DNA of 64,000 nucleotides from Sulfurospirillum arcachonense DSM 9755 (GTDB lineage Bacteria; Campylobacterota; Campylobacteria; Campylobacterales; Sulfurospirillaceae). The stretch covers positions 1 to 64,000 of the forward strand of contig NZ_JFBL01000016.1 in NCBI RefSeq assembly GCF_000597725.1, written 5' to 3'. The position numbers and the translations under genes are program-made. Shown piece after piece: positions 1,078 through 64,000 of this stretch (the first letter of the stretch is position 1; every line of letters starts with the position of its first letter). The notes under the pieces are model-generated. The model did no database searches. It was given only the letters and a program-made list of their open reading frames with translations, and was not told where the DNA came from.

Positions 1078-1107
1078 TTACATGTAAGGATTTTTCCTTA
1101 CATGTAA
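1078..1107. terminator. Bidirectional terminator built from two inverted TTACATGTAA units
   Basis: A perfect 13-bp stem (TTACATGTAAGGA and its complement) closes on a TTTT loop. An A-run precedes it and another follows it, so each strand ends in a U-rich tract. It lies between the convergent chemoreceptor gene and htpG. The same 30 bases recur exactly at 11081-11110. Confidence 0.85.
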
Positions 1108-1125
1108 AAAGTCAGTTTGAAGTTG

Positions 1126-3015
1126 TTATAATGCTTTAGCAATGATTTTGTTTAATCTTTTTGCAAAACCAGTAATGTCTTCTATTTTCATACCTTCACT
1201 TAGTCTTGCTTGATCCATGAGTAGATAAGAAACATCATTTAAAAGTAAGTCATCAGATTTATTTAAAAGCTTTTCAAAAATTTCATGTTTAGGATTAATT
1301 TCAAGAATAGGCTTCACTGTAGGAAGATTATCTTGTCCCATCTGTTTGAGCATTTGTTGCATTTGAAAATCTGGATCATTTTTATCATAAATTAAAACAG
1401 AAGGAGAATCACTTAAACGACTAGAAATCTTAACGTCTTTTGCATCATCTTTTAGGATTTCTTTCATTTTTACTAAAATAGCCTGGTATTTATCTTCGTT
1501 TTCTTTTACTTCTTCTTTATCTTCTTTGATTTCCTCATCAATATCTGAATTATTGACTGGCTTGATAGGTGTTTTATCATATTCTGTTACCATAGGCATA
1601 ATGATACTATCTACATCCTCATCAAGTAAAAGAACTTCAATATCTTTAGCTTTAAATTGCTCAATGAGTGGAGAATGTCTTAAGATAGCTTCTTCTTCAC
1701 CAGTGATATAGTAAATTGATTTTTGCTCATCCTTCATAGCTTCTTTATACTCTTTTAGAGTTATAAGTCCTTCACGTTTGCTTGATTTGAACATAGCAAG
1801 GTCAAGAAGAGCTTCTTTGTTTTCAAAATCACCATAAAGACCTTCTTTAAGAACACGACCAAATGTTTTATAAAATTCAAGATATTTTTCTTTATCTTTA
1901 GTTTGAAGTTTTTTAAGTTCGCTAAGTATTTTTTTTACAGAAGCTTTTTTAATAGTTTCTAAAACAATATTTTGTTGCAGAATTTCACGACTAACATTGA
2001 GTGGCAAGTCTTCAGCATCAATAATACCTTTAACAAACCTTAGGTATACAGGAAGTAATTCTTTTTCGTCATCAGTGATAAAAACTCTTTTAACATAAAG
2101 TTTAACACCTGGTTGATAATCCATACGAAAAAGATCCATTGGTGCAGTTGTAGGGATATAAAAAAGTGTATTATACTCTATAGTTCCTTCTGCTTTTGTG
2201 TGCGTCCAAAGGATTGGGTCAGTACTATCATGTGAAATTTGTTTGTAAAAGTCTTTATATTCATCTTTTTTAATTTCACTTTTATTCATACGCCATAAAG
2301 CAGATGCTTTGTTGACTTGGATATTTTTAATTTCAGTTTTTGAAGGTTCTGTCTCTTTTCCATCATCATCTGTAACAGCAGGAATAGTTTCTTCTTTATC
2401 CATCCAAATACCAAATGGTATATGGTTTGAGTATTTTTTAATAATAGATTCTATTCTATAGTATTCTAAAAATTCTACTTCTTCATCTTTTAAAAAGAGT
2501 TTTATTGAAGTCCCATGAGTATCTTTAGTTGCTTCTACTATTTCGTAATCGCCACCAGCTTCACTTGACCAAGTATATGCTTTATCTTCACCCGCTTTTT
2601 TTGAAGTAACTTCAATTTTATTTGCAACCATGAAGGCTGAATAAAAACCAACACCAAATTGACCTATTAAAGAAGAGTCTTTTTTTTCATCACCACTAAG
2701 GTTTTGTACAAATGATTTAGTACCACTTCTTGCTATTGTACCAAGGTTTTCAACTAAATCTTCTTCATTCATCCCAATACCACTATCACTAAGTGTAAGA
2801 GTTTTTGCTCCTTTATCTATAGCTATATCTATTTTAGGTTTATATTCTAAATTTTTATAATTATCATCAGTCAGTGTTAGATAGTTTAGTTTATCCAACG
2901 CATCTGATGAATTAGATATAAGCTCTCTTAAAAATATCTCTTTATTAGAATATAAAGAGTGAATCATTAAGTCCAAAAGTTGTGTAACTTCTGTTTGAAA
3001 CTGATGTTTTGACAT
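1126..3015 (-). CDS. htpG: Molecular chaperone HtpG (Hsp90)
   Basis: A 629-residue protein, the usual bacterial Hsp90 length. The N-terminal GHKL ATPase domain shows the helix with the catalytic glutamate ([14 protein letters not shown], residues 29-42), the DSGIGM box near residue 77 and the [12 protein letters not shown] lid near 118. The middle domain contains [12 protein letters not shown] and the C-terminal dimerisation domain is complete. It is a cytoplasmic ATP-dependent dimeric chaperone. The start is an ATG with an AAAGGA ribosome site six bases upstream. A TAAAAT -10 box lies at about 3044-3049. No CIRCE or clear HspR operator was seen nearby. Confidence 0.98.
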
Positions 3016-3043
3016 GTATTTATCCTTTAATAAATTTTTTCAT

Positions 3044-3049
3044 ATTTTA
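3044..3049 (-). promoter_or_regulatory. Probable -10 box of the htpG promoter
   Basis: Read on the minus strand this is TAAAAT preceded by a T-run and GC (TTTTTTTGCTAAAAT), the usual form of vegetative promoters in Campylobacterota, where the -35 box is weak. It lies about 30 bases before the htpG start. It was inferred by eye. Confidence 0.5.
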
Positions 3050-3141
3050 GCAAAAAAACTATAAAAAATCGATAAAGTTTAATTTTTATATAGAGTAATC
3101 TTTAGTCTATATGTATCAAGTTTATTAAAAGAAGAAAAGTA

Positions 3142-3528
3142 TTATCTTAGAAAATACTCAATAACTTTAAATCCACTACCAGCTGCTAAAACTGTAGCTA
3201 CTACATTTAATATAATATTTGCAAGGCCTAAAACAAAACTACCTTGATTTAATAACCAAAATGTTTCTAGTGCAAAAGTAGAGTAGGTTGTGAGTGCACC
3301 CATCATTCCAGTAGATAAAAAAGATTTTATTGGTATAGAAAAAAACTGAGTATAAGTAAAAAGAGCAAATAAAATGCCTAAAATAAGACTACCTAAAATA
3401 TTGACACCTAGAGTACCAAAAGGTAAATCATGAGGGACATTACGGTTTATAAGACCATTTATATAAGCACGACTAATGGCACCTATAAAACCGCCACTAC
3501 CTATTGCTAGTATAGTTTGCCAGCTCAT
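3142..3528 (-). CDS. crcB: Fluoride channel CrcB/FluC
   Basis: A four-helix membrane protein of 128 residues (129 if the preceding in-frame ATG at 3531 is used). It has the family marks GGFIGAISRAY near the N-terminus, GTLGVNILGSLILG in the second helix and TGMMGALTTYSTFALE, which holds the polar track and the central sodium site. In this family the protein forms an antiparallel dimer that passively expels fluoride. It overlaps the end of plsC by about 30 bases and is the last gene of the operon. Only one copy is present, so it is probably a homodimer. No fluoride riboswitch can precede it because the gene is embedded in the operon. Confidence 0.95.
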   Translation of the reverse strand: MSWQTILAIGSGGFIGAISRAYINGLINRNVPHDLPFGTLGVNILGSLILGILFALFTYTQFFSIPIKSFLSTGMMGALTTYSTFALETFWLLNQGSFVLGLANIILNVVATVLAAGSGFKVIEYFLR

Positions 3529-4192
3529 CATCTAAGGCCTTTTGCATATTTTCTCTCATGGTTGTAAACCAATTTTCATCCTTTTTTGGGTCAATTATGT
3601 CTAAATATATTACAGAGATATTTCCACTATGAGCAGTTAGCTTTTGTGAATCAAATATATGTTTTGTATTTACTAGAACTACTGGCTGTACTTTTAAATT
3701 GAGTTTTTCTGCTAAAATTTTTCCACCATTATGAAAATCTCCTAATTTTTCTCCTTGACCACGTGTACCTTCAGGAAAGAGGGCAATAGTACGCCCTTGA
3801 TTGATTCTTTCTTTACTAAGTTTAATAATTTTAATAATGGAGCGTTTATCGTTTCGATCAATTGATATCATTTTTGGTGCTGCTATGATATGTCCAAAAA
3901 GAGGAATGTCTCTTAATTCTTGTTTAGCAACCCAGCATAAGTCTTTAGGATAGATTGTTTCTAGAGCTATTATATCAACCAAACTTTGGTGATTTATAAG
4001 GATCAGTTTAGCTTCTGTATTAGGTTCATTTTTTTGAATAATTTTAAAATTCATAAAATAGGTTTGCAGATGTCCCCAAGCTCTTCTTATGGCATGACTA
4101 TTTTTTTGAAATATATAAATTAAAACAACAGTCATAAGAACAGTCATAACAAATTCAATAATAATAAAAAAACCTTTAATTTTTGGTATCAC
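3497..4192 (-). CDS. plsC: 1-acyl-sn-glycerol-3-phosphate acyltransferase (PlsC family)
   Basis: A 231-residue protein with one N-terminal membrane helix (about residues 8-26). The acyltransferase catalytic box NHQSLVDI matches the HX4D motif, and FPEGTRGQGEKLGDF is the glycerol-phosphate binding block. In phospholipid synthesis this family adds the second acyl chain to lysophosphatidic acid at the inner membrane. Its start overlaps the previous gene by 17 bases and its end overlaps crcB, indicating translational coupling. Acyl-donor specificity cannot be read from the sequence. Confidence 0.93.
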   Translation of the reverse strand: MIPKIKGFFIIIEFVMTVLMTVVLIYIFQKNSHAIRRAWGHLQTYFMNFKIIQKNEPNTEAKLILINHQSLVDIIALETIYPKDLCWVAKQELRDIPLFGHIIAAPKMISIDRNDKRSIIKIIKLSKERINQGRTIALFPEGTRGQGEKLGDFHNGGKILAEKLNLKVQPVVLVNTKHIFDSQKLTAHSGNISVIYLDIIDPKKDENWFTTMRENMQKALDDELANYTSNR

Positions 4193-5273
4193 TCTGTTCC
4201 TTTATCCATCCAATTTTTCCATTAGGAAGTAGTATTTTTATATAATCATCTTTAGCATCAAGTTTTTGGGCATACAAGGTTCTATTTGTTGTATAAAAAA
4301 TAGTAGATTTTTTTGTTGGCAATATTTTTATTTTTGTATTTTTGTCTATTCTTATACTATTAAGAGGATTTTTATCAAATGCAAAAAGCACAAATAGCAT
4401 AATTATTAAGATTAAATAAGTTATTTTTCTTCTTCTTATAAATAAAATAATCAAGATAAGTGCAATAACTCCATATGCTCCATCTATATAAATTTGAATG
4501 CTACTGTCTTGTGGGTTTAAGTCTATTTGTGTACTAACACTGTCATCATCAACTACAATAGGAATAGAAAATTTTTCAAATTTGTTGTTCTGTGTATTAA
4601 AGTAAGTAAAATCAAATTTTTTTTCAAAATTAGGGATTATTGCATAATAAAATATTCTATGATAAGGTAAATTGTCAACACTAGAGTCAATACCATCTCT
4701 AGTTACCCATTGGAGTTTAAAATCTTCAAGATTTGATTGTTCTGCTTCTACTTCTAAAACGATAATATAACTTTTATCATCAAATTGACTCATTTTATGT
4801 TTTTTTATTTTAAGTGATTTTGCTATAACATTACTAAAGTATTTTGTACCATTGAGTTTAAATTTTGTAGGATTAAGTGCTTTTATAGTGGCACTATCAA
4901 TTTGTAAAGAGTCTTGATGAATACTCAATGTAATATCAGGTAATTGGCTTGTATTATCATTTATTTTTATATAAAAAGTATTATAAAATATATTATCACT
5001 AAACCATTGCCATTTTGCATCTGGATTGATAACTTTTATATTTTCAGAGTTACTAAAACTGCTAGTAATTTCTTCAAAATTATTATTAGCAATAATAGCT
5101 TTAATTTTAAGGGGAAAAACTTCACCAACATATACTTTTGTGGGAATATTTTCATAGGATAAAAAGATAGATTTTACTTTTTGAGAAGTATTAGTACTAT
5201 TATTAATATCATATTTATTCTGTGCAAGTGAATATGTGATGAAAATAAAAAGTAGTACTAATACTTGTTTCAT
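4176..5273 (-). CDS. Exported membrane-anchored protein with C-terminal SH3-like domain, BatD-like layout, function unknown
   Basis: A 365-residue protein. It starts with a signal peptide (MKQVLVLLFIFITYSLAQ), followed by ~240 residues of predicted beta-rich extracytoplasmic sequence. Two close hydrophobic stretches around residues 265-300 are separated by a basic RRRK turn. The tail is an SH3-like module ending in LLPNGKIGWIKE. The layout of extracytoplasmic beta domains, membrane anchor and small C-terminal domain recalls BatD/oxygen-tolerance proteins, but I see no motif that proves it. It is coupled to purQ by a TAATG stop-start overlap and to plsC by a 17-base overlap. The link to purine synthesis is probably only operon structure. 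Confidence 0.7.
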   Translation of the reverse strand: MKQVLVLLFIFITYSLAQNKYDINNSTNTSQKVKSIFLSYENIPTKVYVGEVFPLKIKAIIANNNFEEITSSFSNSENIKVINPDAKWQWFSDNIFYNTFYIKINDNTSQLPDITLSIHQDSLQIDSATIKALNPTKFKLNGTKYFSNVIAKSLKIKKHKMSQFDDKSYIIVLEVEAEQSNLEDFKLQWVTRDGIDSSVDNLPYHRIFYYAIIPNFEKKFDFTYFNTQNNKFEKFSIPIVVDDDSVSTQIDLNPQDSSIQIYIDGAYGVIALILIILFIRRRKITYLILIIMLFVLFAFDKNPLNSIRIDKNTKIKILPTKKSTIFYTTNRTLYAQKLDAKDDYIKILLPNGKIGWIKEQSDTKN

Positions 5274-5947
5274 TAGCCTTCCATAAGTCCTTGAAGCATT
5301 TTTATGCCGTCATTTGAGCCTAACAAAGTTTCTATAGCACGTTCAGGATGAGGCATCAGTCCAAATACGTTTTTATTTTTGTTACATATACAAGCAATTG
5401 AATCAACTGATCCATTTGGATTCTTATCAATTCCATTTTCATCAGAGTATTTTAATAATACTTGATTATTTGCATATAATTCATCTAAAGCTTTTTCATC
5501 AATAAAGTAGTTACCTTCACCATGTGCAATAGGAATATTAAGAACATCACCAATGTTGAGTTTTTGTAAAAAATCATTTTCGTTATTGACAACTCTTAAG
5601 TGATGGTACTTAGATATAAAATGCACATTAGAGTTTCTTTTCATAGCACCTTCAAGTAATCCCATCTCTAAAAGCATTTGAAAACCATTACAGATGCCAA
5701 GTACTTTTCCACCATCATTTGCAAATCTAATAACATCTTTCATAATAGGTGAAAATTTAGCAATAGCAGCACTTCGTAGATAATCACCATAACTAAAACC
5801 ACCAGGGAGAACTACAAGATCAGTATCATTTGGTAATGTTTCATTTTTATGAAAAACTAATTCAACATCAGCATTTAATTTCTCATAAGCATATTTTGTA
5901 TCCATTTCACAGTTAGTTCCTGGAAATACAACTACACTAACTTTCAT
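5273..5947 (-). CDS. purQ: Phosphoribosylformylglycinamidine synthase subunit PurQ (glutaminase)
   Basis: A 224-residue class I glutamine amidotransferase. It begins with the PurQ-typical FPGTNCEMD, carries the nucleophile cysteine in GICNGFQMLLEMGLL and the histidine/glutamate pair in PHPERA. It releases ammonia from glutamine for PurL in the fourth step of purine synthesis. Start and stop are fused to neighbours by TAATG overlaps, so the stoichiometry with PurS is probably set by coupled translation. The partner PurL is coded at 31635-33836. Confidence 0.98.
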   Translation of the reverse strand: MKVSVVVFPGTNCEMDTKYAYEKLNADVELVFHKNETLPNDTDLVVLPGGFSYGDYLRSAAIAKFSPIMKDVIRFANDGGKVLGICNGFQMLLEMGLLEGAMKRNSNVHFISKYHHLRVVNNENDFLQKLNIGDVLNIPIAHGEGNYFIDEKALDELYANNQVLLKYSDENGIDKNPNGSVDSIACICNKNKNVFGLMPHPERAIETLLGSNDGIKMLQGLMEG

Positions 5948-6186
5948 TATGCTAGCTCAATCTCATAATTTTCGATTACTGTATTTGCAAGTAATTCTTC
6001 ACACATATTGGCTACTTTAGCTTTGATGTCTTGTTCATTTCCTTCATTAACTTGTAAAATTATTTGTTTACCAATTCTCACATCATTTACTTCATTGAAA
6101 CTAAGTGCACTTAATGCATGATGAACTGCTTTCCCTTGAGGATCAAGAACACCTTCTTTAAGTTGGATATTTACTATTACTTTCAT
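5947..6186 (-). CDS. purS: Phosphoribosylformylglycinamidine synthase subunit PurS
   Basis: A 79-residue protein of standard PurS size with the motif LKEGVLDPQGKAVHHALSAL, followed by VRIGKQI. PurS is a small dimeric protein that bridges PurQ and small-type PurL into one complex. It lies 18 bases after purC and overlaps the purQ start by one base (TAATG). Its presence agrees with the short PurL in this window, which lacks fused PurS-like and glutaminase domains. Confidence 0.97.
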   Translation of the reverse strand: MKVIVNIQLKEGVLDPQGKAVHHALSALSFNEVNDVRIGKQIILQVNEGNEQDIKAKVANMCEELLANTVIENYEIELA

Positions 6187-6204
6187 TTTTATTTTCCTAT
6201 ATTT

Positions 6205-6915
6205 TTATTTTAAAATTCTTCTAAGCACTTCTTCATAAGCAACTTTTACATTACCTAGATCTTGTCTAAAAATATCTTTATCTAATTTTTCATTTGTATC
6301 CATATCCCAAAAACGACAACTATCAGGGCTTATTTCATCTGAAAGAAGTATGTTTCCTTCTGCATCAACACCAAATTCTACTTTAAAATCAACTAGACTG
6401 AGTCTTCTTTCAGCAAAAAATCTTTTCATAATAACATTTATTTCGCGACCAAGTCTTTTTAATTCTTCTAAATCAGATTCACTTTTCACTAAATCCATCA
6501 TGATACAGTGTTGATCATTAATTATAGGGTCATTTAAAGAGTCGTCTTTGTAATAAAATTCAACTAAAGTAAAAGGTAGTTCAGTTCCATCTTTTATACC
6601 AAGACGTTTTGTTAATGAACCTGTTGCAATGTTTCTAACAACTACTTCAATAGGAATAATTTTTACAGCTTTTATTAGTTGGTTATTATCATCTAAAGTT
6701 TTAACAAGATGAGTTTTAATCCCACCTTTTTCTAAAAGTGCAAAAAGTTGTGTACTAATCTTACAATTAAGTGCACCTTTGCCTTCTTCACTACCTTTTT
6801 TTGCAGCATTACCAGCTGTTAAATCATCTTTAAATTCTGCAACTAAAAGATTTTCATCTTCAGTTTCATAAAGCCTTTTTGCTTTTCCTTCATATAATAA
6901 ACTTTGCTTTTCCAC
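6205..6915 (-). CDS. purC: Phosphoribosylaminoimidazole-succinocarboxamide synthase (PurC)
   Basis: A 236-residue SAICAR synthetase. [13 protein letters not shown] is the N-terminal nucleotide loop, VVRNIATGS and LVDFKVEFG are family signatures, and the [12 protein letters not shown] segment binds substrate. It ligates aspartate to carboxyaminoimidazole ribotide using ATP. The start codon is GTG, supported by a TAGGAGA ribosome site six bases upstream. The gene starts 13 bases after ctpA and heads the purC-purS-purQ run. Confidence 0.97.
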
Positions 6916-6928
6916 GGTGTCTCCTACG

Positions 6929-8239
6929 TTATTTTTGTTTTATACTTAATACTTTTATAATATCAACTGCACTTTTTAACTGTAAATCTTTTAATATATC
7001 TTCTTCTGTTATAATTGTTTTTTTATCTTTTTTAATCTCTTTTTTCTTTGTTTTACTTTTACCGTCAACTTTTTCTAATTCTTTTTGAAGATGTTGTTTT
7101 AACTCTTTTTCTTTTATCATAAACTCATTTTCTTTATGAGGAACTTTTCCTGGGAAAACAGTAATATCAGGAGTAACACCAACAGCTTGTATAGTTCTTC
7201 CACTTGGCAAATAATATCTTGCAATTGTAAGTCTTAAAGCTTCTTCTTCATTAACAGGTAAAATAACTTGAACACTTCCTTTTCCAAAAGTTTTTTCTCC
7301 CACTATAATAGCACGTTTATGATCTTGAAGTGCTCCACTTACAATTTCACTTGCACTTGCACTTCCTCCATTGACTAAAACAACCAATGGAATATCTGTA
7401 ATGGTACCTACTTTTGTAGCTGAATACTCACTGTTTTGATCTTTATAACGTCCTTTTTGAGAAACTATTACGCCTTTATCTACAAATAAGTCAGTTAATC
7501 CTACAGCTTGATTTAAAAGTCCTCCAGGGTTGTTTCTTAAGTCTAAAACAATACCTTTAATGTCTCTGTTTTTACTTAAAGCTTCTTTTGTTTTTCTTAC
7601 AACTTTTTTATCAAAACTAACAACTCTAAGATAAAGAATATTTTCTTTTTCTATAGTTTTTGTATATACAGAATCTATTTTAATAATATCTCTTGTAATA
7701 GGGATTTTTAAAGGTTTGTTTTCTCCAGTTCTTACAACAGTAAGAGTTAAACTAGTACCAGGTTTTCCCCTCATAATAGCAACTGCTTCATCTATGGTCA
7801 TATTTAAAGTGGATTGTTCATTGATTTTTAGTATAATGTCACTTGCTTTTACACCAGCTTTATCAGCTGGAGTTCCTTCCATAGGAGCAATAATAGTTAA
7901 AGCACCATCTTTCATGCCTATAGTAATTCCCAATCCTCCAAACTCACCTTCGGTTTGAATTTTTAGAGATTTGAAATGTTTTTTATCTAAATAAGAAGAG
8001 TGTGCATCTAAATTTGATAAAAGTCCTTCTATAGATTTGTTAACAATATCATTGACTTTTAAATCATCTACATAATATTGTTCTACCTTGTCTAAAACTT
8101 TTGAAAATTTAGCAAGTGCTGCAAGTCTACTTTGTGCTCCTTTACCTTCATCTTTAGCCATTAAGGTTGATGATAATACAAGTGTTGCCCCAAGTAGGGT
8201 TGTCGCAAAACCTAAACTTACAAATCTAAGATGTTTCAT
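6929..8239 (-). CDS. ctpA: C-terminal processing peptidase, S41 family (CtpA)
   Basis: A 436-residue serine protease, assuming the ATG at 8239, which has a GGGAG ribosome site; the frame extends further upstream but without support. The N-terminal signal or anchor segment ([19 protein letters not shown]) places it in the periplasm. A PDZ domain follows ([19 protein letters not shown]). The protease core contains the serine nucleophile in [15 protein letters not shown] and the lysine base in [11 protein letters not shown]. The tail is lysine-rich and of low complexity. Such proteases trim C-termini of envelope proteins and regulate wall hydrolases. It is the first gene of the purine operon and probably shares its promoter. 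Confidence 0.95.
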
Positions 8240-8253
8240 ATTAACGCTCTCCC

Positions 8254-8277
8254 TTTTTCTGAGTAAATTCAGAAAAA
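8254..8277 (-). promoter_or_regulatory. Hairpin in the ctpA leader just before its ribosome site
   Basis: An inverted repeat with arms TTTTTCTGA and TCAGAAAAA and a 6-base spacer lies directly upstream of the GGGAG site of ctpA. In RNA the stem would end next to the ribosome site. It may tune translation or mark an operator; no function is shown. Confidence 0.4.
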
Positions 8278-8396
8278 AAATCCTCTTACTAAAGTCAAGA
8301 AGTAGAACTTCTATAAGCCTTATGTGCAAAAAGAAATTTATGTTATTTAAAATAGATGTAGATTATATAGAAATTTTACTAAAAAATCTATAAAGT

Positions 8397-8414
8397 CACT
8401 ATTTGTTAATAGTG
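8397..8414. promoter_or_regulatory. Palindrome CACTAT-N6-ATAGTG in the ctpA-clpB divergent region
   Basis: A perfect 6-bp inverted repeat with a 6-base spacer lies about 35 bases upstream of the clpB -35 box. The spacing and symmetry would suit a dimeric regulator. It matches no operator I know (not CIRCE, and not a clear HspR site). Confidence 0.35.
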
Positions 8415-8449
8415 ATAAATTATTATATGAGTTAATATGATAAAGAAAC

Positions 8450-8478
8450 TTGACACTAGTTGACTAAAGTTGTATAAT
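8450..8478 (+). promoter_or_regulatory. Consensus sigma-70 promoter of clpB
   Basis: TTGACA at 8450-8455 and TATAAT at 8473-8478 with exactly 17 bases between match the full consensus at both boxes. It lies about 28 bases upstream of the clpB start. A perfect -35 box is uncommon in this phylum. Confidence 0.8.
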
Positions 8479-8505
8479 TTAATAAAGAAAAAATAGGAGC
8501 ATATA

Positions 8506-11079
8506 ATGAGTAATAAAATTTTTGAAAAACTTACACATCAGATGACACAAACAATAGAAAGTGCAATTAGTTTGGCTTTACATTCAAAAAATAGTGAAGT
8601 TGTTCCTTTACATGTATTTTGGGCACTATGTACTAATAGCAACTCTATTTTAAATCAAGTATTTAATAAAATGAGTGTTGATAAAGCAGCACTTGAGCTT
8701 GAAATAAAAAGTGAAATAGGAAAATTATCAACCTCTTCAAGTATTACAAAAGAGAGTATAAAAATATCTAAACAAATGGTAGAGAGTTTACATGTTGCTG
8801 AAGGTAAAATGAGCCAAATTGGAGATAGTTTTTTAGCTGTAGATACTTGGGTATTATCAAATTTAGACACAAAACCTATAAAAGAGATATTTACAAAATA
8901 TATTGATTTGCTTGAATTTAAAAAGAATTTTGAAGCCTTAAGAGGTGGAAAGAAAATAGATAAACAGACAAGTGATGAGAATTTAGAGGCTTTAGGTAAA
9001 TATGGAATTGATTTAACTGCTATGGCCAATGAAGGAAAGTTAGATCCCGTGATAGGAAGAGACGAGCAGATTCATAGAATGATGCAAATTTTGATAAGAA
9101 AAACAAAAAACAATCCTATTTTAATAGGAGAGCCAGGAACTGGTAAAACAGCAATTGCTGAAGGATTAGCAAGTAAAATTGCAGCTAAAGATGTTCCTCT
9201 AAGTTTACAAAATAAAAGGTTGATTGCTCTTGATATGGCTGCACTCATAGCTGGTGCAAAATATAGAGGTGAGTTTGAAGATAGACTCAAAGCAGTCATT
9301 GATGAAGTAAAAAAAGATGGGAATATTATACTTTTTATTGATGAGATTCATACTATAGTTGGAGCTGGGGCAAGTGAAGGAAGCATGGATGCTGCAAATA
9401 TCCTTAAACCTGCTCTTGCACGAGGAGAACTTCATACTATAGGAGCTACTACGCTAAAAGAGTATAGAAAACATTTTGAAAAAGATGCCGCCCTACAAAG
9501 ACGTTTTTTATCTGTAAAAGTAGATGAACCTAGTATTAATGAGGCTTTACAAATTTTAAGAGGTCTCAAACAAAGTCTTGAAGCACACCATAGTGTAAGT
9601 ATTCAAGACTCTGCTTTAGTGGCTGCTGCAAAATTAAGTGCAAGGTATATAACGGATAGATTTTTACCTGATAAAGCAATAGATTTGATTGATGAATCAG
9701 CGGCTGAGCTGAAAATGCAAATAGAGAGTGAACCTACAGAGTTATCTATAGTCAAAAGGGAGATAAGTTCTCTTATGGTTGAGAAAGAAGCTCTTTTGAT
9801 GGAAAAAAGTAAAAAAAATTCTGATAGATTAGAGATGATTGCAAAAGAGTTAAGTGATGCAAAAGAAAAACAGCAATCTTTAGAGGCACAATTTGAAAAT
9901 GAAAAATCTGTATTTGATAAAATTTCTAATTTTAAGAGTGATTTGGATGCATTAAAGCGTGAAGCTGAAATGGCAAAGAAAAATAGTGATTTTAATAAAG
10001 CTGCTGAAATAGAGTATGGAAAAGTTCCAGAACTTCTTAAAAGTGAAGAAGAGTTAAAAAAGACTTGGGTGAATATGGAAAAAAGTGGCACACTTTTAAA
10101 AAATAATGTAGATGAAGAGATGATAGCTAGTATTGTGAGTAGGTGGACAGGAATTCCTGTTAATAAAATGCTTCAAAGTGATAAACAAAAAGTTTTAGAC
10201 ATAGAGGATAAATTAAGAGAAGAGGTTGTCGGTCAAGATAAAGCTTTAAAAGCTATTGGTAGAGCTATCAAAAGAAACAAAGCTGGACTTGGCTCAACTG
10301 AAAGACCAATAGGTAGTTTTATGTTTTTAGGGCCTACGGGAGTTGGTAAAACTCAAAGTGCAAAAGCTTTGGCTAATTTTCTTTTTGATAGTGAAAAATC
10401 TCTTCTTAGGTTTGATATGAGTGAATATATGGAAAAACATTCAGTATCTCGTTTAGTAGGACCACCTCCTGGGTATGTTGGCTATGATGAGGGTGGACAG
10501 CTTACTGAATTAGTCCGTAGAAAACCATATAGTGTACTTTTATTTGATGAAATAGAAAAAGCCCATCCAGATGTTTTTAATATCTTGTTACAAGTTCTTG
10601 ATGATGGACGTTTAACGGATAATAAAGGTGTTGTAGTTGATTTTAAAAATACTATTATTATTTTAACTTCAAACATAGCAAGTGATAAAATTATGGAAGA
10701 CCCTGAAAATTGTACAGATAGTGTTATGGGTGAATTAAAGAGAAACTTTAAACCAGAGTTTTTAAATCGTTTAGATGATATTGTAATTTTTAATCCTCTA
10801 GGTTTAGAAGAGATTACAGCTATTGTTGATATCTTATTTAGAGAGCTACAAGATAAACTTGAGCAAAAAGATATGAATATAACCCTTTCACTTGAAGCAA
10901 AAGAATTGATTGCAAAAGCAGGGTTTGATCCAGTATATGGAGCGCGACCACTTAAACGTGCTATTTATGAGCTTATTGAAGATAGACTTGCTGATATGAT
11001 TTTAAGTGATGAGATAAACGAAGGTGATAATTTAGAAGTAAATGTGAGTGGAGAAAGTATAGTTATAACTAAAAAATAG
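8506..11079 (+). CDS. clpB: ATP-dependent disaggregase ClpB
   Basis: An 857-residue Hsp100 protein of full ClpB length. The N-domain spans about residues 1-145. The first AAA+ module has Walker A GEPGTGKT (208-215) and Walker [15 protein letters not shown]. The coiled-coil middle domain covers about 400-530. The second AAA+ module has GPTGVGKT near 608-615, [13 protein letters not shown], and the pore loop GYVGYDEGG. It rescues aggregated proteins with the DnaK system in the cytoplasm. The ribosome site is AGGAG. The gene is monocistronic, driven by the consensus promoter at 8450 and closed by the hairpin at 11081. Confidence 0.98.
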
Positions 11080-11080
11080 T

Positions 11081-11110
11081 TTACATGTAAGGATTTTTCC
11101 TTACATGTAA
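11081..11110. terminator. Second copy of the inverted TTACATGTAA terminator
   Basis: Identical in all 30 bases to 1078-1107, again between convergent genes (clpB and a DsbA-like gene). The stop codon of the minus-strand gene (11101-11103) lies inside the right arm, so the element and the end of the gene have co-evolved. Confidence 0.85.
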
Positions 11111-11706
11111 GAGTTAATTTGTTTTAGTATTGCTTTTGGATTATTGTAATCTATAACTATATTGTAGTGATTTTCTTTTATTTGAAGGACTAAAGATGGA
11201 AAACTATTGATTGATAGTTCTCTTCTTTTTTTTAAATCTTCTTGAAATAAGCCTATAATAGTTTTTGATTCTAAATCAGAGGAAAATTTTTTTATATCAA
11301 GCCCTATGTTTTTTGCAGCTTTTTCTAAAGTATCTCTATCTGATGGATTTGAAGCATTTTGATAATATGCTTTTTGTATTGCTTTTATCATTTTATACTC
11401 TTTATTTTGAACTCTTGCAGCTACGCAAGCTTGACATGCTAAATAGGTTGAGCGTCTAGGTTTGCATTTTGTCCAAAAATCAAAGTTAAACTGGGTTCCT
11501 ACTCTTTGTTCAATACTCTCCCATACATTTTGTAACATCTTTTGCATATCATCAGGCATGAGCTCATCACTATGAGGAGCTAATCCTCCATAAATATATT
11601 GTACTTGTAAATTTGAATCAATATTTTCGAGAATTTTTTTCCATGTAGGAGCAAAAGCATAACACCAAGAACACATAGGATCTAGTATATAGTATAAAGT
11701 ATTCAT
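11101..11706 (-). CDS. DsbA-family thioredoxin-fold protein, cytoplasmic (FrnE-like)
   Basis: A 201-residue protein with the redox motif CSWC in LDPMCSWCYAFAPTW close to the N-terminus and no signal peptide, so it acts in the cytoplasm. A helical insertion follows and the thioredoxin fold resumes near residue 165 (INSFPSLVLQI, with the cis-proline). Related proteins are annotated as DsbA-family or FrnE-like disulfide isomerases; the substrate is unknown. Two further cysteines (LACQACVAA) could form a second thiol pair. The start has a strong AAGGA site. It is probably cotranscribed with the small exported protein upstream. Confidence 0.85.
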   Translation of the reverse strand: MNTLYYILDPMCSWCYAFAPTWKKILENIDSNLQVQYIYGGLAPHSDELMPDDMQKMLQNVWESIEQRVGTQFNFDFWTKCKPRRSTYLACQACVAARVQNKEYKMIKAIQKAYYQNASNPSDRDTLEKAAKNIGLDIKKFSSDLESKTIIGLFQEDLKKRRELSINSFPSLVLQIKENHYNIVIDYNNPKAILKQINSYM

Positions 11707-11735
11707 GTTTTTCCTTTATGGAGAATTTATTTTAT

Positions 11736-11939
11736 TTATTGTTGTTTTTTTGTAGATTTTATTTTTTTTGATTGATTATTATCTAAAAAAGAAGATATAC
11801 CAATATTGGGATTTTTTAGTGATTTTTTCTCACCAGAATATAAAGAGGTTTTTTTCCCACCATGCATGTCTATTTTTCCATATTCATTTTGTGCAAAAAT
11901 ACTTGAAATTAACAAAGTTATCATAATAATATAGTTCAT
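11736..11939 (-). CDS. Small exported protein, function unknown
   Basis: A 67-residue product with a clear signal peptide (MNYIIMITLLISSIFAQ). The short basic, glycine- and serine-containing mature part has a KKTSLYSGEKKSLKNPN segment and a lysine-rich tail. A good AAGGA ribosome site sits 6 bases before the ATG. It is followed after 29 bases by the DsbA-like gene. No family is recognised. Export signal and ribosome site together make it likely to be a real gene. Confidence 0.6.
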   Translation of the reverse strand: MNYIIMITLLISSIFAQNEYGKIDMHGGKKTSLYSGEKKSLKNPNIGISSFLDNNQSKKIKSTKKQQ

Positions 11940-12046
11940 ATTTTTCCTTTTATTTAAAATAATTGTATCTATATTTATTTACATATAAAGGATTTTCTTA
12001 TCTTAGTTTTTATATTTTAGAATGTTTTTAATATTGGTTTGAGAGT

Positions 12047-12068
12047 TAGGGATAGTTAGATATCCCTA
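12047..12068. terminator. Possible terminator hairpin downstream of the OB-fold protein gene
   Basis: Arms TAGGGATA and TATCCCTA with a 6-base loop form a perfect 8-bp stem just beyond the stop of the minus-strand gene at 12075. No strong U-run follows on the minus strand, so termination is uncertain. Confidence 0.4.
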
Positions 12069-12074
12069 GTTAAA

Positions 12075-12431
12075 TTATTTAGTAAAACTACTGTTTTCAA
12101 TGAGTGCTCTGTAAAAGTAACCTGAACCTAAATCAACGTTAGCTTTTAGTGTTCCTTTAGCTGTAACAACATCGCCAGGAGCTACATTTGATGTTCCTGT
12201 TTTTACCGTAAATATTATTTTATTTTTTGAATTGTCTTCTACATGAACCCAATCTTTACCCATAATAGCACTTGAAATTTTGACAACTTTACCTTTTGCA
12301 GTAATAGTTTTTCCATTTAAAGCGGTATTATTCGCAAAGAGTTCAGATATTTTATATATTTTATCTGATGCTGTTGCTCCAACTACTCCAAAAAAAAGTA
12401 CTAACAAAGCAACTACTAATTTATTTTTCAT
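12075..12431 (-). CDS. Periplasmic OB-fold protein (NrfJ-like)
   Basis: A 118-residue protein with a signal peptide (MKNKLVVALLVLFFGVVGATA) and a single OB-fold-like domain: GKTITAKGKVVKISSAIMGKDWVHVED, then PGDVVTAKGTLKANVDLGSGYFY. This pattern belongs to small exported OB-fold proteins often annotated as NrfJ-related. They frequently accompany c-type cytochrome or respiratory genes, but none adjoin it here. It has no cysteine and so no haem site of its own. It seems to be transcribed alone. Confidence 0.75.
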   Translation of the reverse strand: MKNKLVVALLVLFFGVVGATASDKIYKISELFANNTALNGKTITAKGKVVKISSAIMGKDWVHVEDNSKNKIIFTVKTGTSNVAPGDVVTAKGTLKANVDLGSGYFYRALIENSSFTK

Positions 12432-12502
12432 CTATGATCTCCTAAAATTTTTGATAATTTTACTATAATCATTCTATGAGTTTGCTTGTATTTAAATAAA
12501 AT

Positions 12503-52704: not shown

Positions 52705-54015
52705 ATGAATAAAATAAGTGAAAATTTAACAAAAAAAGATTTAGAACATATCTGGCATCCTTGTACACAGATGAAAGATTATGAAAAATTACCTCTAATT
52801 CCTATAAAAAAAGGGAAGGGAGTTTATCTCTATGATTATGAAGATAATAAATATATTGATTCAATAAGTTCATGGTGGGTAAATATGTTTGGTCATGCAA
52901 ATGAATATATCAACCAAAAACTAAAAGAACAAGTTGATGCGTTAGAACACGTTATACTAACATGTTTTACTCATGAACCTATTATAGATCTTTCACGAAG
53001 ACTAGTAGAAGTTACACCAAAAGGTTTAAATAGAGTTTTTTATGCTGATAATGGTTCGAGTGCTGTTGAAGTTGCTTTGAAAATGAGTTATCAATATTAT
53101 GTTAATAAAGGTGAAAAAAGAACATGTTTTTTATCTTTAGAAAATGGATATCATGGTGAGACTATAGGAGCTTTATCTGTTAGTGATGTAGGGTTATATA
53201 AAGATACTTTTGACCATATACTGCTTAAAACTGTACAAGTACCAGTACCTAGTGATATGAGTGAGAGCTCTACATGTAAAGCTATTGATGCACTTGAAGA
53301 GGTATTGAAAGACAAAGCAAATCAGATTGCAGGTTTTATACTAGAACCACTTATCCAATGTGCTGGTAATATGCATATGTATTCCCCTCTTTATTTAACA
53401 AAAGCACGAGAACTTTGCGATAAATATGATATTCATTTTATAGCGGATGAAATAGCTGTTGGATTTGGTAGAACAGGGACTATGTTTGCTTGTGAACAAG
53501 CTGGTATTACTCCAGATTTTATGACGTTATCAAAGGGTTTAACAGGAGGATATCTTCCACTTTCTTGTGTTATGACTACAGATAAAATATATGATGCGTT
53601 TTATTGTGACTACAATGAAAATAAAGCATTTTTACATTCTCACAGTTATACAGGTAATCCTCTTGCTTGTAGTGTTGCAAATGCTACTTTAGATATATTT
53701 GAGAATGATGATGTTATAAACGAAAATAAGAAAAAAAGTGCATATATAGCTCAAAAATTAGAAAAGTTTAAAGAGTTAAAAAATATAGCAAGTATAAGAC
53801 AAACAGGTATGGTAGCTGCGATGGATATAATAGGTTATAAGCCAAGTGATAGAATAGGTTTAAAAGTATTTGATTATGCACTTGAACAAGGGGTATTTTT
53901 AAGGCCTTTAGGTAATGTTGTTTATTTTATGCCACCTTATGTTATTAACTATGAAGAGATTGATAAAATGATGGATACTGCATATCAGGCTATAAAAAGT
54001 TTAAATAATGGATGA
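52705..54015 (+). CDS. bioA: Adenosylmethionine-8-amino-7-oxononanoate aminotransferase (BioA)
   Basis: A 436-residue class III aminotransferase. HIWHPCTQMKDYEKLP near the start and SSWWVNMFGHANEYIN are BioA signatures. SLENGYHGETIGALS, the PLP aspartate in FIADEIAVGFGRTGTMFACE and the Schiff-base lysine in TLSKGLTGGYLPLS complete the site. It makes 7,8-diaminopelargonate in biotin synthesis. GGAG precedes the ATG. No other biotin genes adjoin it. It overlaps the next gene by eight bases, and one TACATGTA site codes for STCK. Confidence 0.95.
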   Translation: MNKISENLTKKDLEHIWHPCTQMKDYEKLPLIPIKKGKGVYLYDYEDNKYIDSISSWWVNMFGHANEYINQKLKEQVDALEHVILTCFTHEPIIDLSRRLVEVTPKGLNRVFYADNGSSAVEVALKMSYQYYVNKGEKRTCFLSLENGYHGETIGALSVSDVGLYKDTFDHILLKTVQVPVPSDMSESSTCKAIDALEEVLKDKANQIAGFILEPLIQCAGNMHMYSPLYLTKARELCDKYDIHFIADEIAVGFGRTGTMFACEQAGITPDFMTLSKGLTGGYLPLSCVMTTDKIYDAFYCDYNENKAFLHSHSYTGNPLACSVANATLDIFENDDVINENKKKSAYIAQKLEKFKELKNIASIRQTGMVAAMDIIGYKPSDRIGLKVFDYALEQGVFLRPLGNVVYFMPPYVINYEEIDKMMDTAYQAIKSLNNG

Positions 54016-54544
54016 TATATTTGAAAGAAAAAAAATACTTGAAGCATATATTAAAGGGAAAGATGAAGATAAATTTCAAATACTTGAAAATATATATTTA
54101 GATACAGCACAATTGTTATTTAAAATAGACTCAGATAATATATCCTTTCCTTCTGAAGTCGAGGGAAATAAAACAATAGCTAAAGTCTTGTCAAAAGATT
54201 TTAATCAAAAGTATGACAATGTTAAAACGTATTATTTATCAGATGATTTTTCTAAGCAAAAATGGCTTGTATTAATGAGAGAAAAAGAAAATGAAAATAT
54301 TAGAGTAGGTTGCGGATATTATGATTGGGAATTTATAAGGCAAAGGGATAATGAGTTAAAAATTAAAAGTCATACAATTTATATTCACGAAATGTTAAAT
54401 CTCAATGATAAACCATTGGAATATTTATTAAATATGCAAAAATCGTTTGCATATCCATGGGCAGATAAAAACAGATTAATAGAAGTCTTTGAAAAATTTA
54501 AAGAGTTAGTAGCAGTTACAAATTATTTAAAAATTAATCCATAG
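54008..54544 (+). CDS. Conserved cytoplasmic protein of unknown function (possibly NTF2-like)
   Basis: A 178-residue protein without a signal peptide or membrane helix. It starts within the end of bioA (8-base overlap) and so is translationally coupled to it. The pattern of an N-terminal helix, NKTIAKVLSKDFNQKYDNVK, then WLVLMREKENENIRVGCGYY and HTIYIHEMLNL suggests a compact alpha-beta domain reminiscent of NTF2-like folds. No catalytic residues are recognised. It overlaps the convergent gene by 11 bases. I do not know its function; the bioA link may be positional only. Confidence 0.65.
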   Translation: MDDIFERKKILEAYIKGKDEDKFQILENIYLDTAQLLFKIDSDNISFPSEVEGNKTIAKVLSKDFNQKYDNVKTYYLSDDFSKQKWLVLMREKENENIRVGCGYYDWEFIRQRDNELKIKSHTIYIHEMLNLNDKPLEYLLNMQKSFAYPWADKNRLIEVFEKFKELVAVTNYLKINP

Positions 54545-55610
54545 AACGTAAAAGTTGTTCTATAGTATTTATATCTTCTATAGTGATTTTATGAGATGGG
54601 GTTACCATACGTAATATATGAAAAACTTCTGTAATAGATATGCCTTTAGTATCTTTTTTTACTATGCGAGCTTTATTGTTTTCAATGACAATGTTGAGAA
54701 GTTTTTTTCTACTGTATTGCATAAAATAGGTTAAAAGAAGTATATCATTATGGTTTTTTTCAATTGCTACAGCTACTTTTTCTGTCACATCAGGTATTTC
54801 TGGGTAAAGATTTTCAAAATCTTTTTTTTCTATATATCCTATATAAACTTTTGTAAATAGATCAATATACCTTGTACAGGTTTCTGATTTTAAAAAATTC
54901 ATATTTAATACTGTGTTTGGATTAGAACGGAGCTTGTGCAACATCCAACTTAAAGAATTATAGTATCTAAATGGAGATGTTTGTAACTTTGACGCACTCA
55001 CTAGATTTGGAGCAACTGGAGTTAAAAATGGTTTTCTTTTTCTTCTATTTTTTGATTTTAGCCAATTAAATATGTTCGAAACATCAAAAGATTTTGTTAA
55101 CCATACAGTGCAATACTCTGGCAACCTTTTTCTACCACTTACACCTTGATTTAAAATAATAAGAGCTTTTATATTATGATTTGGAAATAAAATTTCTAAG
55201 AGTGCTTTTTTCTTTCTTAAACGGCGTCTTAAGTTTGTTACTGATTTAATTAAGGTCATTTCTATAAATATTATTTCTTTGTCATTAAAGAAAAGACCAT
55301 CAAATTCGTTTATCTCAATAGCTCGAGTTTTATAAATAATTTGACCTTTATTATTTACATGTAAAGCATTTGATTGAGTATTTGTTTTATGAGCGTGAGG
55401 ACCTTTGAGTATAAAATTACCTATTCGAGGGTTTTGTTTTGCATAAAGTAAAAGTTTTTCATAAAGATAATTTTCGTAAACAATACCAGCAAAAGAGTGA
55501 TAAGCACTAAGGTAGTCTGGAGATTCTTTATCAACTTGTGCAGCTTCAAGCTTAATAAGATGTTTGATGTTATAGTGATAATATAATAAGTTGTCACTTA
55601 TATCTTCCAT
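54534..55610 (-). CDS. Unknown protein with a PD-(D/E)xK nuclease-like motif
   Basis: A 358-residue soluble protein of no family I know by name. An early helix contains E45 (AGIVYENYLYEKLL). The segment AIEINEFDGLFF has N101, E102 and D104, and IIFIEMTLIKS has E117, T119 and K122. This strand-turn-strand pattern with D-x12-E-x-T and a following basic helix (RRRLRKKK) is typical of PD-(D/E)xK nuclease cores. The C-terminal half is helical and unassigned. It stands alone and its end overlaps the bioA operon by 11 bases. The nuclease idea needs structural support. Confidence 0.5.
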   Translation of the reverse strand: MEDISDNLLYYHYNIKHLIKLEAAQVDKESPDYLSAYHSFAGIVYENYLYEKLLLYAKQNPRIGNFILKGPHAHKTNTQSNALHVNNKGQIIYKTRAIEINEFDGLFFNDKEIIFIEMTLIKSVTNLRRRLRKKKALLEILFPNHNIKALIILNQGVSGRKRLPEYCTVWLTKSFDVSNIFNWLKSKNRRKRKPFLTPVAPNLVSASKLQTSPFRYYNSLSWMLHKLRSNPNTVLNMNFLKSETCTRYIDLFTKVYIGYIEKKDFENLYPEIPDVTEKVAVAIEKNHNDILLLTYFMQYSRKKLLNIVIENNKARIVKKDTKGISITEVFHILRMVTPSHKITIEDINTIEQLLRSMD

Positions 55611-62194: not shown

Positions 62195-62281
62195 AAAAAA
62201 TTATAAAAGTATATTTTAGGATTTATATAGGTAAATAGAACAAATAAATCTATTTTAAATATGGTTATTTAAAGGAATTTT

Positions 62282-62631
62282 ATGAGAAAAAAATTTTATA
62301 GATTTAGACGTTGGAAATTTTTTTATAAAAGCATATAAAAGATTGGGCGTATGAAAAAGAGTATCGTTTAATTTTAAATAGTGTATTAAATCATAAAATA
62401 GAAGAAAAAAATAGATACTTAAAGTATAATTTTAGTAGCTTAAAAGGATTGATTTTTGGTATTAAAACTTCTATCGAAGAAAAAATAAAAGTCATAGAGA
62501 TTATTGAAAAAAAATGTAAAATAGAAAATAGAAATGATTTTGAGTTTTATCAAGCTTATTATTGTCATAGAAATAAAAATATACAACATCGAAAAATGAG
62601 TTTTATAAAATTTGATAAAATAAACGTATAA
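62282..62631 (+). pseudogene. Remnant of a DUF2971 gene (start and C-terminal part, middle deleted)
   Basis: The 448-base stretch between rmuC and the wall-hydrolase gene holds this relic and otherwise only AT-rich spacer. An ATG at 62282 with AAAGGA upstream opens 18 codons (MRKKFYRFRRWKFFYKSI) and stops. In another frame from 62329, KHIKDWAYEKEYRLI, LKGLIFGIKTS and FEFYQAYYCHRNKNI match the C-terminal part of DUF2971 proteins (W-x-YEKEYR, viFG). About 150 central codons appear lost. DUF2971 genes are often found near mobile or defence genes. The stretch is even more AT-rich than its surroundings. Confidence 0.65.
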
Positions 62632-62642
62632 TCTTTTTATAA

Positions 62643-64000
62643 CTAATCAATAGTATCGAATAACTCCGGTCTATATTCAAAGTGCATGGTATCGTAGTGG
62701 TACCATCTTCCTCCCCAAATAAAACCGTATTTTTCAAAGATTTCAACAATTTCTTTTGGAATTTTATTTTTATATACCAAGTTTTTATCCCATCTCCAAT
62801 ATGCTGAATTTTTTACATTGATATCTATACTAATCCCAAAACTATGAGGACTTAGTCTTTTTGTTCCTGCAATATTTCTATAAGTAAATGTACCAGAAAT
62901 ATTTTCTAAGTATTTTTTATCTTCTTGTGGAAGTTTTTTTAGCTCAGTTATTACTTTTTCAAGCTGAACTGAGGCATTTTGTTTTTTGTTAAAAAAGAGT
63001 GTTGATCCATCTATCCAACTAATAGGTACCAAGTTTTGTTTTATTTCTTGTTCATTTTTTCCATAAAGTTTTTTTAGTAATGCTTCATTTCTAAATCTTC
63101 CTGGATCAAAGTTCTTTTGTGGAGCTGTAATCTCTGCAAATGCAGGATAACGTACTCTAAGAGTATCTTTTATACTTGGATGCTCAATCATTGTTTGAAA
63201 GTCTTTTTGTACATAGTCGTGATATTCTAGTGTAGTGTTATCATCAAAATAGAGTAGATTGTTTTCTACTTTTTCTATGCTAGGGTATGCTTTTGTAAGA
63301 TTATGATAAACAAAAGAGGGCATATCAGGTTTTATAACAATCCCTTTAGCTTTTGAAATGAGAAGAGCTTCTTTAGGTACATTGTTTTGGTTTTCACCTA
63401 AGTGTAAATCTGAAAAGATAGTTTTTCCAACGATAGCTCGACTTTCCACATCATCTTTGTATGTTTTTATTCCCCATGTGTTATGCATGACCATGGCTTT
63501 GCCTTCAAACTCTCCTGCATAGAGCATAATATGTCCTTGTAGATATATTAAACTCAAATAAGCGATACCTTGACTGAGTATCATTTTCTCTTTCTCCTCA
63601 TTGTTTAGACCTTCAAATGAGATATATTCTCCACTTTGCTTTTGTCCAAATGAGTTTCTTGGAAGCCAAAGTCCAAAAGGTGTAAAAAAATCTTTTGTAA
63701 AAGCAGAACAGTCTCTATTATCTAAGTAACCGCCCCAACCATATTTTTCTCCCAATAATTCATTGCTTACATGTAAGAGGTTTTCTTTGTTGTAGACTAA
63801 AGGCATTGTATGGGCAACTGCTTTTGGGATTGTTACATGTAAAGCTTTATTTGTTTGATTAAACATATCTTTATAGATATATGAATAGTAAAAGTTTTCA
63901 TCTTCATTGATTATTGGAAATAGGGCTCCAAGCTTTACATGTAAGAGATACTGTTGTTTGTCTGTGTAAAGTGCTGTATTATCTGTGGTAATAACTATTT
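62643..64000 (-). CDS. Cell-wall hydrolase: SH3-like region, NlpC/P60 peptidase and M15 peptidase (5' end outside the window)
   Basis: The frame is open to the window edge, so the ATG at 63866 is internal. The visible part gives an SH3-like segment (ALYTDKQQYLLHVKLGALFP) and then an NlpC/P60 domain with cysteine in NRDCSAFTKDFF and histidines in LQGHIMLYAG and MVMHNTWG. The C-terminal half is an M15-type peptidase with HSFGISIDIN (HxxxxxxD) and HYDTMHFEYRPEL. It should cut peptide stems of peptidoglycan in two ways, as D,L-endopeptidase and D,D- or L,D-peptidase. Three TTACATGTAA motifs lie in its first 80 visible codons. The signal peptide is not visible. Confidence 0.9.
   Translation of the reverse strand, partial: IVITTDNTALYTDKQQYLLHVKLGALFPIINEDENFYYSYIYKDMFNQTNKALHVTIPKAVAHTMPLVYNKENLLHVSNELLGEKYGWGGYLDNRDCSAFTKDFFTPFGLWLPRNSFGQKQSGEYISFEGLNNEEKEKMILSQGIAYLSLIYLQGHIMLYAGEFEGKAMVMHNTWGIKTYKDDVESRAIVGKTIFSDLHLGENQNNVPKEALLISKAKGIVIKPDMPSFVYHNLTKAYPSIEKVENNLLYFDDNTTLEYHDYVQKDFQTMIEHPSIKDTLRVRYPAFAEITAPQKNFDPGRFRNEALLKKLYGKNEQEIKQNLVPISWIDGSTLFFNKKQNASVQLEKVITELKKLPQEDKKYLENISGTFTYRNIAGTKRLSPHSFGISIDINVKNSAYWRWDKNLVYKNKIPKEIVEIFEKYGFIWGGRWYHYDTMHFEYRPELFDTID

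Follow-up and report, generated by a model that had tools for sequence, protein, structure and literature searches.

Campylobacter jejuni belongs to the same phylum as Sulfurospirillum. Its DNA uptake needs a methylated RAATTY motif according to the accessible part of PMC10046745, and self-recognition thus exists in a related bacterium in another form. Enriched motifs as the basis of uptake codes are a topic of the accessible parts of PMC3630211 and PMC12616744, with respect to Neisseriaceae and Pasteurellaceae. The dialects of the DNA uptake sequence (DUS) of Neisseriaceae keep a constant inner core, and the DUS itself occupies permissive regions and forms inverted pairs at terminators, as described in the available text of PMC3630211. 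Here, an over-represented palindrome, the 8-mer TACATGTA and its 10-base extension TTACATGTAA, was analysed in Sulfurospirillum arcachonense DSM 9755 (Campylobacterota, Sulfurospirillaceae), starting from bases 1-64000 of contig 16 (NZ_JFBL01000016.1; hereafter the window) of a 2.66 Mb genome in 42 contigs. The palindrome is a real, strong and lineage-specific feature. With confidence only a little above even, and from comparative analysis, TACATGTA with its soft flanks is read as a DNA-uptake-signal-like self tag of Sulfurospirillaceae.

The own sample comprised 464 kb, that is, the window together with 20 stretches of 20 kb from the same genome (G000). Expected k-mer counts were taken from an order-3 Markov model, and words with a two-strand count of at least 20 were ranked by z-score. 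TACATGTA was the top 8-mer (214 copies vs 10.1 expected) and TTACATGTAA the top 10-mer (113 vs 1.23 expected). The whole own genome held 567 copies of TTACATGTAA, with 3 of a reversed-sequence control. A preliminary description of the window had listed 25 copies of TACATGTA, 13 of them as TTACATGTAA, with 2-3 and well under 1 expected by chance; every position proved exact, base composition gave 2.66 and 0.33, respectively, at a G+C content of 29.3%, and the over-representation held up against the Markov model in the own sample and in the whole-genome count. The closest named relatives by PurL were Sulfurospirillum and Sulfurospirillaceae metagenome assemblies (Campylobacterota) at 92% protein identity.

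The unit was resolved as a strict 8-bp core, TACATGTA, with softer flanks, in the own genome as well as in G017, a relative with a complete 3.03 Mb genome that was sampled as 25 stretches of 20 kb. The flank profile, symmetrised over both strands, gave A 72% and G 18% at position +1, A 68% and G 17% at position +2, G 45% at position +3 and A 46% at position +4 in the own genome. The resulting extended consensus, approximately TCTT-TACATGTA-AAGA, is close to the lean towards (C/T)TACATGTAA(A/G)G described earlier. Weak T-richness was present 6-9 bases outside the core in the own genome and also in G017, where the first flanking A reached 93%. The G017 sample contained 572 perfect 8-mers (two-strand count) vs 5.45 expected; its twelve one-base-variant classes of the 8-mer summed to 107 vs 109.5 expected, the first-base variants stood at ratios of 1.20, 0.92 and 0.94, and the core variants of the 10-mer numbered 22 vs 11.3 expected. 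CATG outside the motif was under expectation (0.74 in the own sample; 0.69-0.70 in G017, G015 and G021). ACATGT outside TACATGTA numbered 66 vs 57 expected in the own genome and lay at 0.73-1.18 of expectation in five of the seven samples (G000, G017, G008, G156 and G168), and ACATGT as the enriched unit was therefore rejected for the own genome and the four others. The same word was raised in G221 (28 vs 7.9, 3.56-fold) and G002 (14 vs 5.4, 2.60-fold); the core that is recognised in these lineages may thus be shorter. Flank signal beyond about 4 bases was slight among the copies of the own genome and most sites were genic, which does not match repeats of the repetitive extragenic palindromic (REP) or miniature inverted-repeat transposable element (MITE) type; three identical 30-base hairpins were the exception to homology confined to the short core.

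Copy numbers of TTACATGTAA ranged from 6 to 1496 across 44 family members. Within genus g4, 17 of the 24 genomes carried 840-1496 copies and the other 7 carried 49-608. Among 298 counted genomes of the class, 17 in Sulfurospirillaceae and 281 outside, 276 of the 281 held 0-10 copies; the other 5, with 31-367 copies, all belonged to family f8. The f8 members G168 (340 sites), G156 and G221 carried TACATGTA while most of their sampled relatives were without it, for which a separate gain or a transfer of the reader might be suggested. Two other spellings were recorded. Seven of 70 genomes (G002, G003, G004, G008, G009, G011 and G039) had CTACATGTAG in 117-225 copies, against at most 62 copies in the other 63, and G011 held 265 copies of TTACATGTAA besides. 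TATCATGATA reached 166 copies in G010 (one contig, 2.38 Mb) vs 2 in the control, and 1-39 in the other 43 family members. In the samples of further relatives (40-100 kb each) and of G017, the top 10-mer was CTACATGTAG in G002 and G008, TATCATGATA in G010, and TTACATGTAA in G017, G168 and G156; G221 showed TACATGTA with loose flanks, G201 gave a weak signal, and the samples of G021, G280 and G226 gave no comparable motif signal. G001, G006 and G040 were low in all three spellings. Across the spellings CATG was constant and the outer bases differed by lineage.

Maintenance of the sites between relatives was estimated with G017 as the reference, and the flanks of the individual site supplied the expectation. 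G017 and G015 were aligned over 111 kb (81.8% identity): G015 had a perfect copy at 50 of 66 G017 sites (12.8 expected), as G017 had at 50 of 53 G015 sites (10.2 expected), with p <1e-22 for conservation. The sites thus outlast their flanks between these genomes and are enriched in three codon frames, as given below, which agrees with the earlier suggestion that selection acts on DNA and not on protein. PurL homologs, compared by eye, gave a related picture: carriers often had Thr-Cys at both site positions and non-carriers mostly Ile-Cys, Val-Cys, Lys-Cys or Lys-Leu, with the exceptions of L027, L046 and L069, which had Thr-Cys without a site at one position, and of carrier L025, which was without both sites.

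A different outcome was recorded for G021 (49 copies), in which 1 of 65 G017 sites was perfect vs 9.7 expected (140 kb, 80.8% identity), and the 490 kb sample of which still held 15 copies of TACATGTA vs 5.4 expected. In a tree of a PilB-like gene, based on this one gene and rooted by the authors, G021 and G029 (238 copies) were nested in the motif-rich group; the split of G021 and G017 from G015 had a support of 0.989 and some other branches were weak, one at 0.216. The motif was therefore probably lost there. Loss faster than neutral in G021, as suggested by 1 of 65 vs 9.7 (p 0.0007), was rejected on the 38 probably ancestral sites that G017 shares with G015 and that have an alignment in G021: 2 survived vs 4.9 expected (p 0.22), the counts of 1 and 2 coming from two differing alignment-mapping rules. 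At the 38 sites the cores were 0.70 identical and the flanks 0.75. These values are compatible with decay close to the local rate after maintenance had stopped, which would suffice for G021.

The PilT-like ATPase gene of the motif-poor G021 (L233 10465-11667) was cut short by an internal stop codon near residue 190 of 400, and that of G018 (L238 about 8900-9830) was broken by an inserted segment of about 0.9 kb with frames that were read by the authors as transposase-like; the gene was without an internal stop in G015, G017, G022, G029 and G034. The break in G021 seems recent, since the gene is otherwise well conserved. For this reason, and because G018 carries 1484 sites with its interrupted gene, the internal stop was dropped as the cause of the loss in G021. 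A search of viral contigs with the PilT-like protein gave no relative.

For the analysis of placement, genes were called with the authors' own longest-ORF scheme and the expectation for each frame was calculated from independent codon use. Site density in the own sample was 0.39/kb in genes and 1.47/kb between them (3.8 times), and 150 of the 214 sites lay more than 40 bp inside genes. Each genic frame was enriched: His-Val 98 vs 6.2 expected (15.8-fold), Thr-Cys 60 vs 4.75 (12.6-fold) and Tyr-Met 9 vs 0.93 (9.7-fold); the raw counts in G017 were 125, 50 and 15, respectively. The preliminary description had placed most sites in genes and in differing frames, as is indeed the case in the window (11 sites read as Thr-Cys, 9 as His-Val and 1 as Tyr-Met, with 4 intergenic), and all of its named frame assignments matched, the sites at 8609, 11102, 18469, 21696, 35018 and 38405 having been left unnamed. 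Strict intergenic density was highest in convergent gaps, with 4.1/kb in the own sample and 5.7/kb in G017, followed by 1.6 and 1.95/kb in co-directional gaps and 0.33 and 1.9/kb in divergent gaps, respectively; the excess of convergent over divergent gaps had p values of 3e-6 (own) and 2e-4 (G017). Close pairs (<80 bp) accounted for 25 of 193 gaps between sites in the own sample vs 7.0 expected, and for 25 of 261 in G017 (raw count). Of three long stretches without sites, one resembled a par-atp-tol cluster, another a polysaccharide cluster and the third a signalling region, as read from their protein starts. PF04860, a phage portal family, was matched in 0 of 21 carrier genomes.

The uptake reading is favoured on the grounds of the constant core with dialects, the gene-end bias with hairpin pairs, the permissive placing, the conservation in place and the loss in single lineages, as the uptake-sequence literature describes in part. 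The genome-wide enrichment, the strict core, the even density in G017, the ComEC and T2SSE-family ATPase genes and the RAATTY motif of C. jejuni also count in favour of this reading. Among the four roles proposed in the preliminary description it is the best fit, short of proof. Accordingly worded as a model, a symmetric reader, which is probably part of a type IV pilus or of Cts-type competence machinery, would favour DNA bearing the palindrome, the palindromic form itself pointing to the symmetry of the reader. Once recombined into the chromosome, the incoming DNA would restore and spread the sites (uptake drive), chiefly where they are tolerated, for example at the ends of genes and in codons that can accommodate them. 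In some lineages the outer bases may change or the bias may be lost, by which dialects would form around the constant CATG, and sites would decay where uptake bias has ended. We infer natural transformation in Sulfurospirillaceae, its biased uptake, the reader and the symmetry of the reader. A broader claim, to which slightly less than even confidence is attached, is that the palindrome may represent a third self-DNA uptake code that evolved independently, this one in Campylobacterota, with a symmetric reader unlike the minor pilins of DUS and of the uptake signal sequence (USS), and with at least three dialects in one family and a separate occurrence in a second family. Another code in a different phylum, palindromic and with dialects and near-total loss, would allow a comparative test of why such codes evolve, and motif-bearing donor DNA might be designed for Sulfurospirillum genetics. 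Should the uptake reading be wrong, more than 1000 maintained copies without a known reader would still be a problem to explain.

Several observations weigh against the uptake reading. ComEC was present in 50 of 51 genomes and ATPases of the T2SSE family in 40 of 40, motif-free genomes included, without co-variation with the motif; since they occur in nearly all genomes they are uninformative as markers of carriers, and the earlier proposal to look for a ComEC or pilin system was borne out in so far as genes for ComEC and for pilus-type ATPases are there, and failed to separate carriers from non-carriers. G018, as mentioned above, keeps its 1484 sites with an interrupted PilT-like gene. The reader gene was not found, and a crude scan for prepilin patterns in the own sample yielded 1 match, an unconvincing pilin. 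Mismatched uptake sequences are over-represented in Haemophilus influenzae and Neisseria gonorrhoeae, as given in the accessible part of PMC1939737, and the one-mismatch 8-mers in G017 were at expectation. Pairs at most 30 bp apart were located between convergent genes in only 6 of 16 cases (own) and 4 of 11 (G017), the remaining pairs being between co-directional or divergent genes or within genes. One of the longest site-free stretches was the par-atp-tol-like core cluster and not foreign DNA. Literature on transformation of Sulfurospirillaceae was not found among the matches listed. As for the palindrome itself, no title or abstract opening describing it was found among the matches listed from the full-text literature, a scope that leaves out most subscription journals, and the accessible parts of PMC8308473, PMC8865925, PMC9938260 and PMC2147049 made no mention of it. 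Apart from these points, the PilB-like gene in G000 and G017 adjoins a gene that was read by the authors as PilC-like.

It is rather unlikely that TACATGTA is instead a chromosome-wide site of a dimeric cytoplasmic DNA-binding protein (for the nucleoid, nucleoid occlusion, replication or repair, or global regulation), in which case the palindrome would reflect a homodimer and the dialects would reflect drift. Its perfect symmetry is in keeping with such a site, as are the two flanks, which varied independently in the own genome (113/57/3 observed vs 110.9/55.5/6.9 expected), and the retention of sites in place between G017 and G015. parS and Noc sites share the outer pattern TNTTT...AAANA, to which the outer bases of the extended consensus bear a likeness; a parS scan of the own 464 kb gave a best match with two mismatches. 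The distribution of sites argues in the other direction: the 25 stretches of G017 contained 286 sites with a mean of 11.4 and an even density (chi2 21.2, 24 df, p 0.63), without the bias towards origin or terminus of parS, Noc, matS or KOPS, and this evenness, in one relative, also disfavours the chromosome-organising role that had been proposed earlier. Furthermore, 500-1500 sites exceed the known sets of Noc or matS sites, G021 persists almost without sites, and a promoter-bound regulator is ill-suited to the low density of divergent and the high density of convergent gaps in the own sample.

An origin like that of HIP1, that is, a palindrome made or kept through DNA methylation, for example by methyl-directed mismatch repair, and without a role in uptake, is quite unlikely. 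The 8-bp palindrome, its preferred extension, its even spread and its replacement by other palindromes all agree with the form described in the accessible part of PMC4390886, so that the HIP1-like role named in the preliminary description stands as to form and falls short of proof. The raised ACATGT counts in G221 and G002 (3.6- and 2.6-fold) would also fit, and the absence of an enzyme is not decisive, since HIP1-rich genomes without a CGATCG methyltransferase exist (PMC4390886, available part). These points are set against the flat first-base variants in G017, which differ from those of HIP1, against ACATGT near expectation in five of seven samples, and against the methyltransferase searches. 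PF02086 (D12; 70 genomes searched) had no match in the carriers G000, G025 and G168, PF01555 (N6_N4; 52 genomes searched) had none in G000, G012-G018, G156 and G168, and PF00145 (C5; 19 genomes searched) had none in G016, G023, G156 and G168, with the result that G168, with its 340 sites, was without all three. No gene of these three families was common to the carriers tested, which weighs against a methyltransferase-based origin of the HIP1 type; judged from sequence, such an origin is disfavoured. On the same grounds restriction-modification was rejected with respect to D12, N6_N4 and C5, the gamma-class families PF02384 and PF07669 not having been searched, and the solitary ACATGT methyltransferase suggested earlier is disfavoured in the own genome, in which the 8-mer forms the unit.

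It is very improbable that the sites stem from a module for transcription termination that multiplied as a repeat, the genic copies being secondary. The attraction of this reading lies in the hairpins. Three of them in the own 464 kb, two of which are in the window, share identical 30 bases, and convergent gaps are the richest in sites. Each of the two pairs in the window lies where convergent genes end and folds into a hairpin of 13 or 14 bp. The first, an inverted pair of two 10-mers at 1078-1107 (8-mers at 1079 and 1099), lies between the convergent genes 56-1063 (+) and 1126-3015 (-, HSP90/HtpG, Pfam PF00183), and its RNA fold of -18.7 kcal/mol (z -5.1) is terminator-like on the - strand. 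The second, an inverted pair with the same 30 bases at 11081-11110 (8-mers at 11082 and 11102), is located where the convergent genes 8506-11079 (+, read by the authors as ClpB-like) and 11101-11706 (-) end, and its fold of -18.4 (z -6.7) is terminator-like on both strands. As against these, most sites are single and genic (150 of 214 more than 40 bp inside) and occur in all frames, little signal is left in the flanks of the copies after about 4 bases, and terminator-like sites in window positions 1-20000 were in no clear overall excess (8 vs 5.7 in shuffles, sd 2.2). Codon-pair usage or mutational bias, for which the frequency of the His-Val and Thr-Cys readings might speak, and the first of which the preliminary description had named as what would refute its case, has practically no chance of being the explanation and was rejected, because every frame stood 9.7- to 15.8-fold over the independent-codon expectation, the intergenic density was 3.8 times the genic one and the one-base variants were at expectation.

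The remaining sites of the window, all palindromic and recorded without a strand (.), are as follows. In the Thr-Cys frame, TACATGTA is located at 12685-12692 in the YgbA-like gene 12503-12853 (Pfam PF11756), at 18159-18166 in the RraA-like gene 17797-18276 (Pfam), at 21696-21703 in 21385-22965, at 36154-36161 in the aminotransferase gene 35483-36619 (Pfam), at 47378-47385 in PrmC 47064-47885 (Pfam), at 50509-50516 in 49778-51145 (FtsA in the preliminary description) and at 53271-53278 in 52705-54015 (BioA in the same source). TTACATGTAA is read in this frame at 12974-12983 in 12850-13365, formerly called a lipoprotein gene and without a Pfam match, at 33592-33601 and 33748-33757 in PurL 31635-33836 (Pfam; both sites were used in the homolog comparison) and at 36321-36330 in the same aminotransferase gene. 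The His-Val frame contains TACATGTA at 8609-8616 in 8506-11079, at 18469-18476 in 18435-18839, at 35018-35025 in 34678-35451 and at 38405-38412 in 38323-39075, together with TTACATGTAA at 27321-27330 in MnmE 26343-27680 (Pfam), at 55355-55364 in 54534-55610 (no Pfam match) and at 63767-63776 and 63833-63842 in the hydrolase gene 62643-63866 (Pfam). A further TTACATGTAA at 63935-63944 (8-mer at 63936) is either upstream of this hydrolase gene or in the His-Val frame of its N-terminal extension, and TACATGTA at 39192-39199 is intergenic. Two other compositional features of the own 464 kb were recorded: a second, weaker over-represented word, AAGAGTTA/TAACTCTT with its extensions, which is non-palindromic and about 2.5- to 6.7-fold enriched depending on length, and the avoidance of GATC, which was strong (0.36 of expectation), and of CTAG, which was less so (0.63).

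Compared with the systems described in other bacteria, the palindrome resembles the RAATTY motif of C. jejuni in that both would serve the choice of self DNA in transformation, in related bacteria (PMC10046745, accessible part), and differs from it in that RAATTY is a methylation-dependent, degenerate 6-bp site. HIP1 and the alternate HIPs of cyanobacteria are likewise frequent octameric palindromes that are replaced by other palindromes in some lineages; they are generally paired with cognate methyltransferases, whereas no gene of the three families was common to the carriers here, and deviations from HIP1 concentrate at its ends, unlike the first-base variants in G017 (PMC4390886, as far as its text was available). 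The USS of Pasteurellaceae has a core with less conserved outer segments, which the weak T-richness here recalls, and also has dialects; the accessible part of PMC12616744 states that it is non-palindromic, with a predicted minor pilin as the receptor, and the symmetry of the present motif therefore counts against the uptake reading. The same is true of the contrast with the DUS of Neisseriaceae, which is non-palindromic and has a demonstrated uptake effect and a receptor, ComP, whereas the present motif is a palindrome with a hypothetical receptor. For DUS and USS alike the known or predicted receptor is a single minor pilin. Enriched mismatched forms and an asymmetric motif, two traits of DUS and USS of which neither is defining, were not found, while genome-wide enrichment, dialects around a core, inverted pairs and permissive positions, and competence machinery (not specific to carriers) were. 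With the DUS in particular, as described in the available text of PMC3630211, the palindrome of Sulfurospirillaceae has in common the very many copies, the constant core with lineage dialects, the permissive positions and the inverted pairs at terminators.

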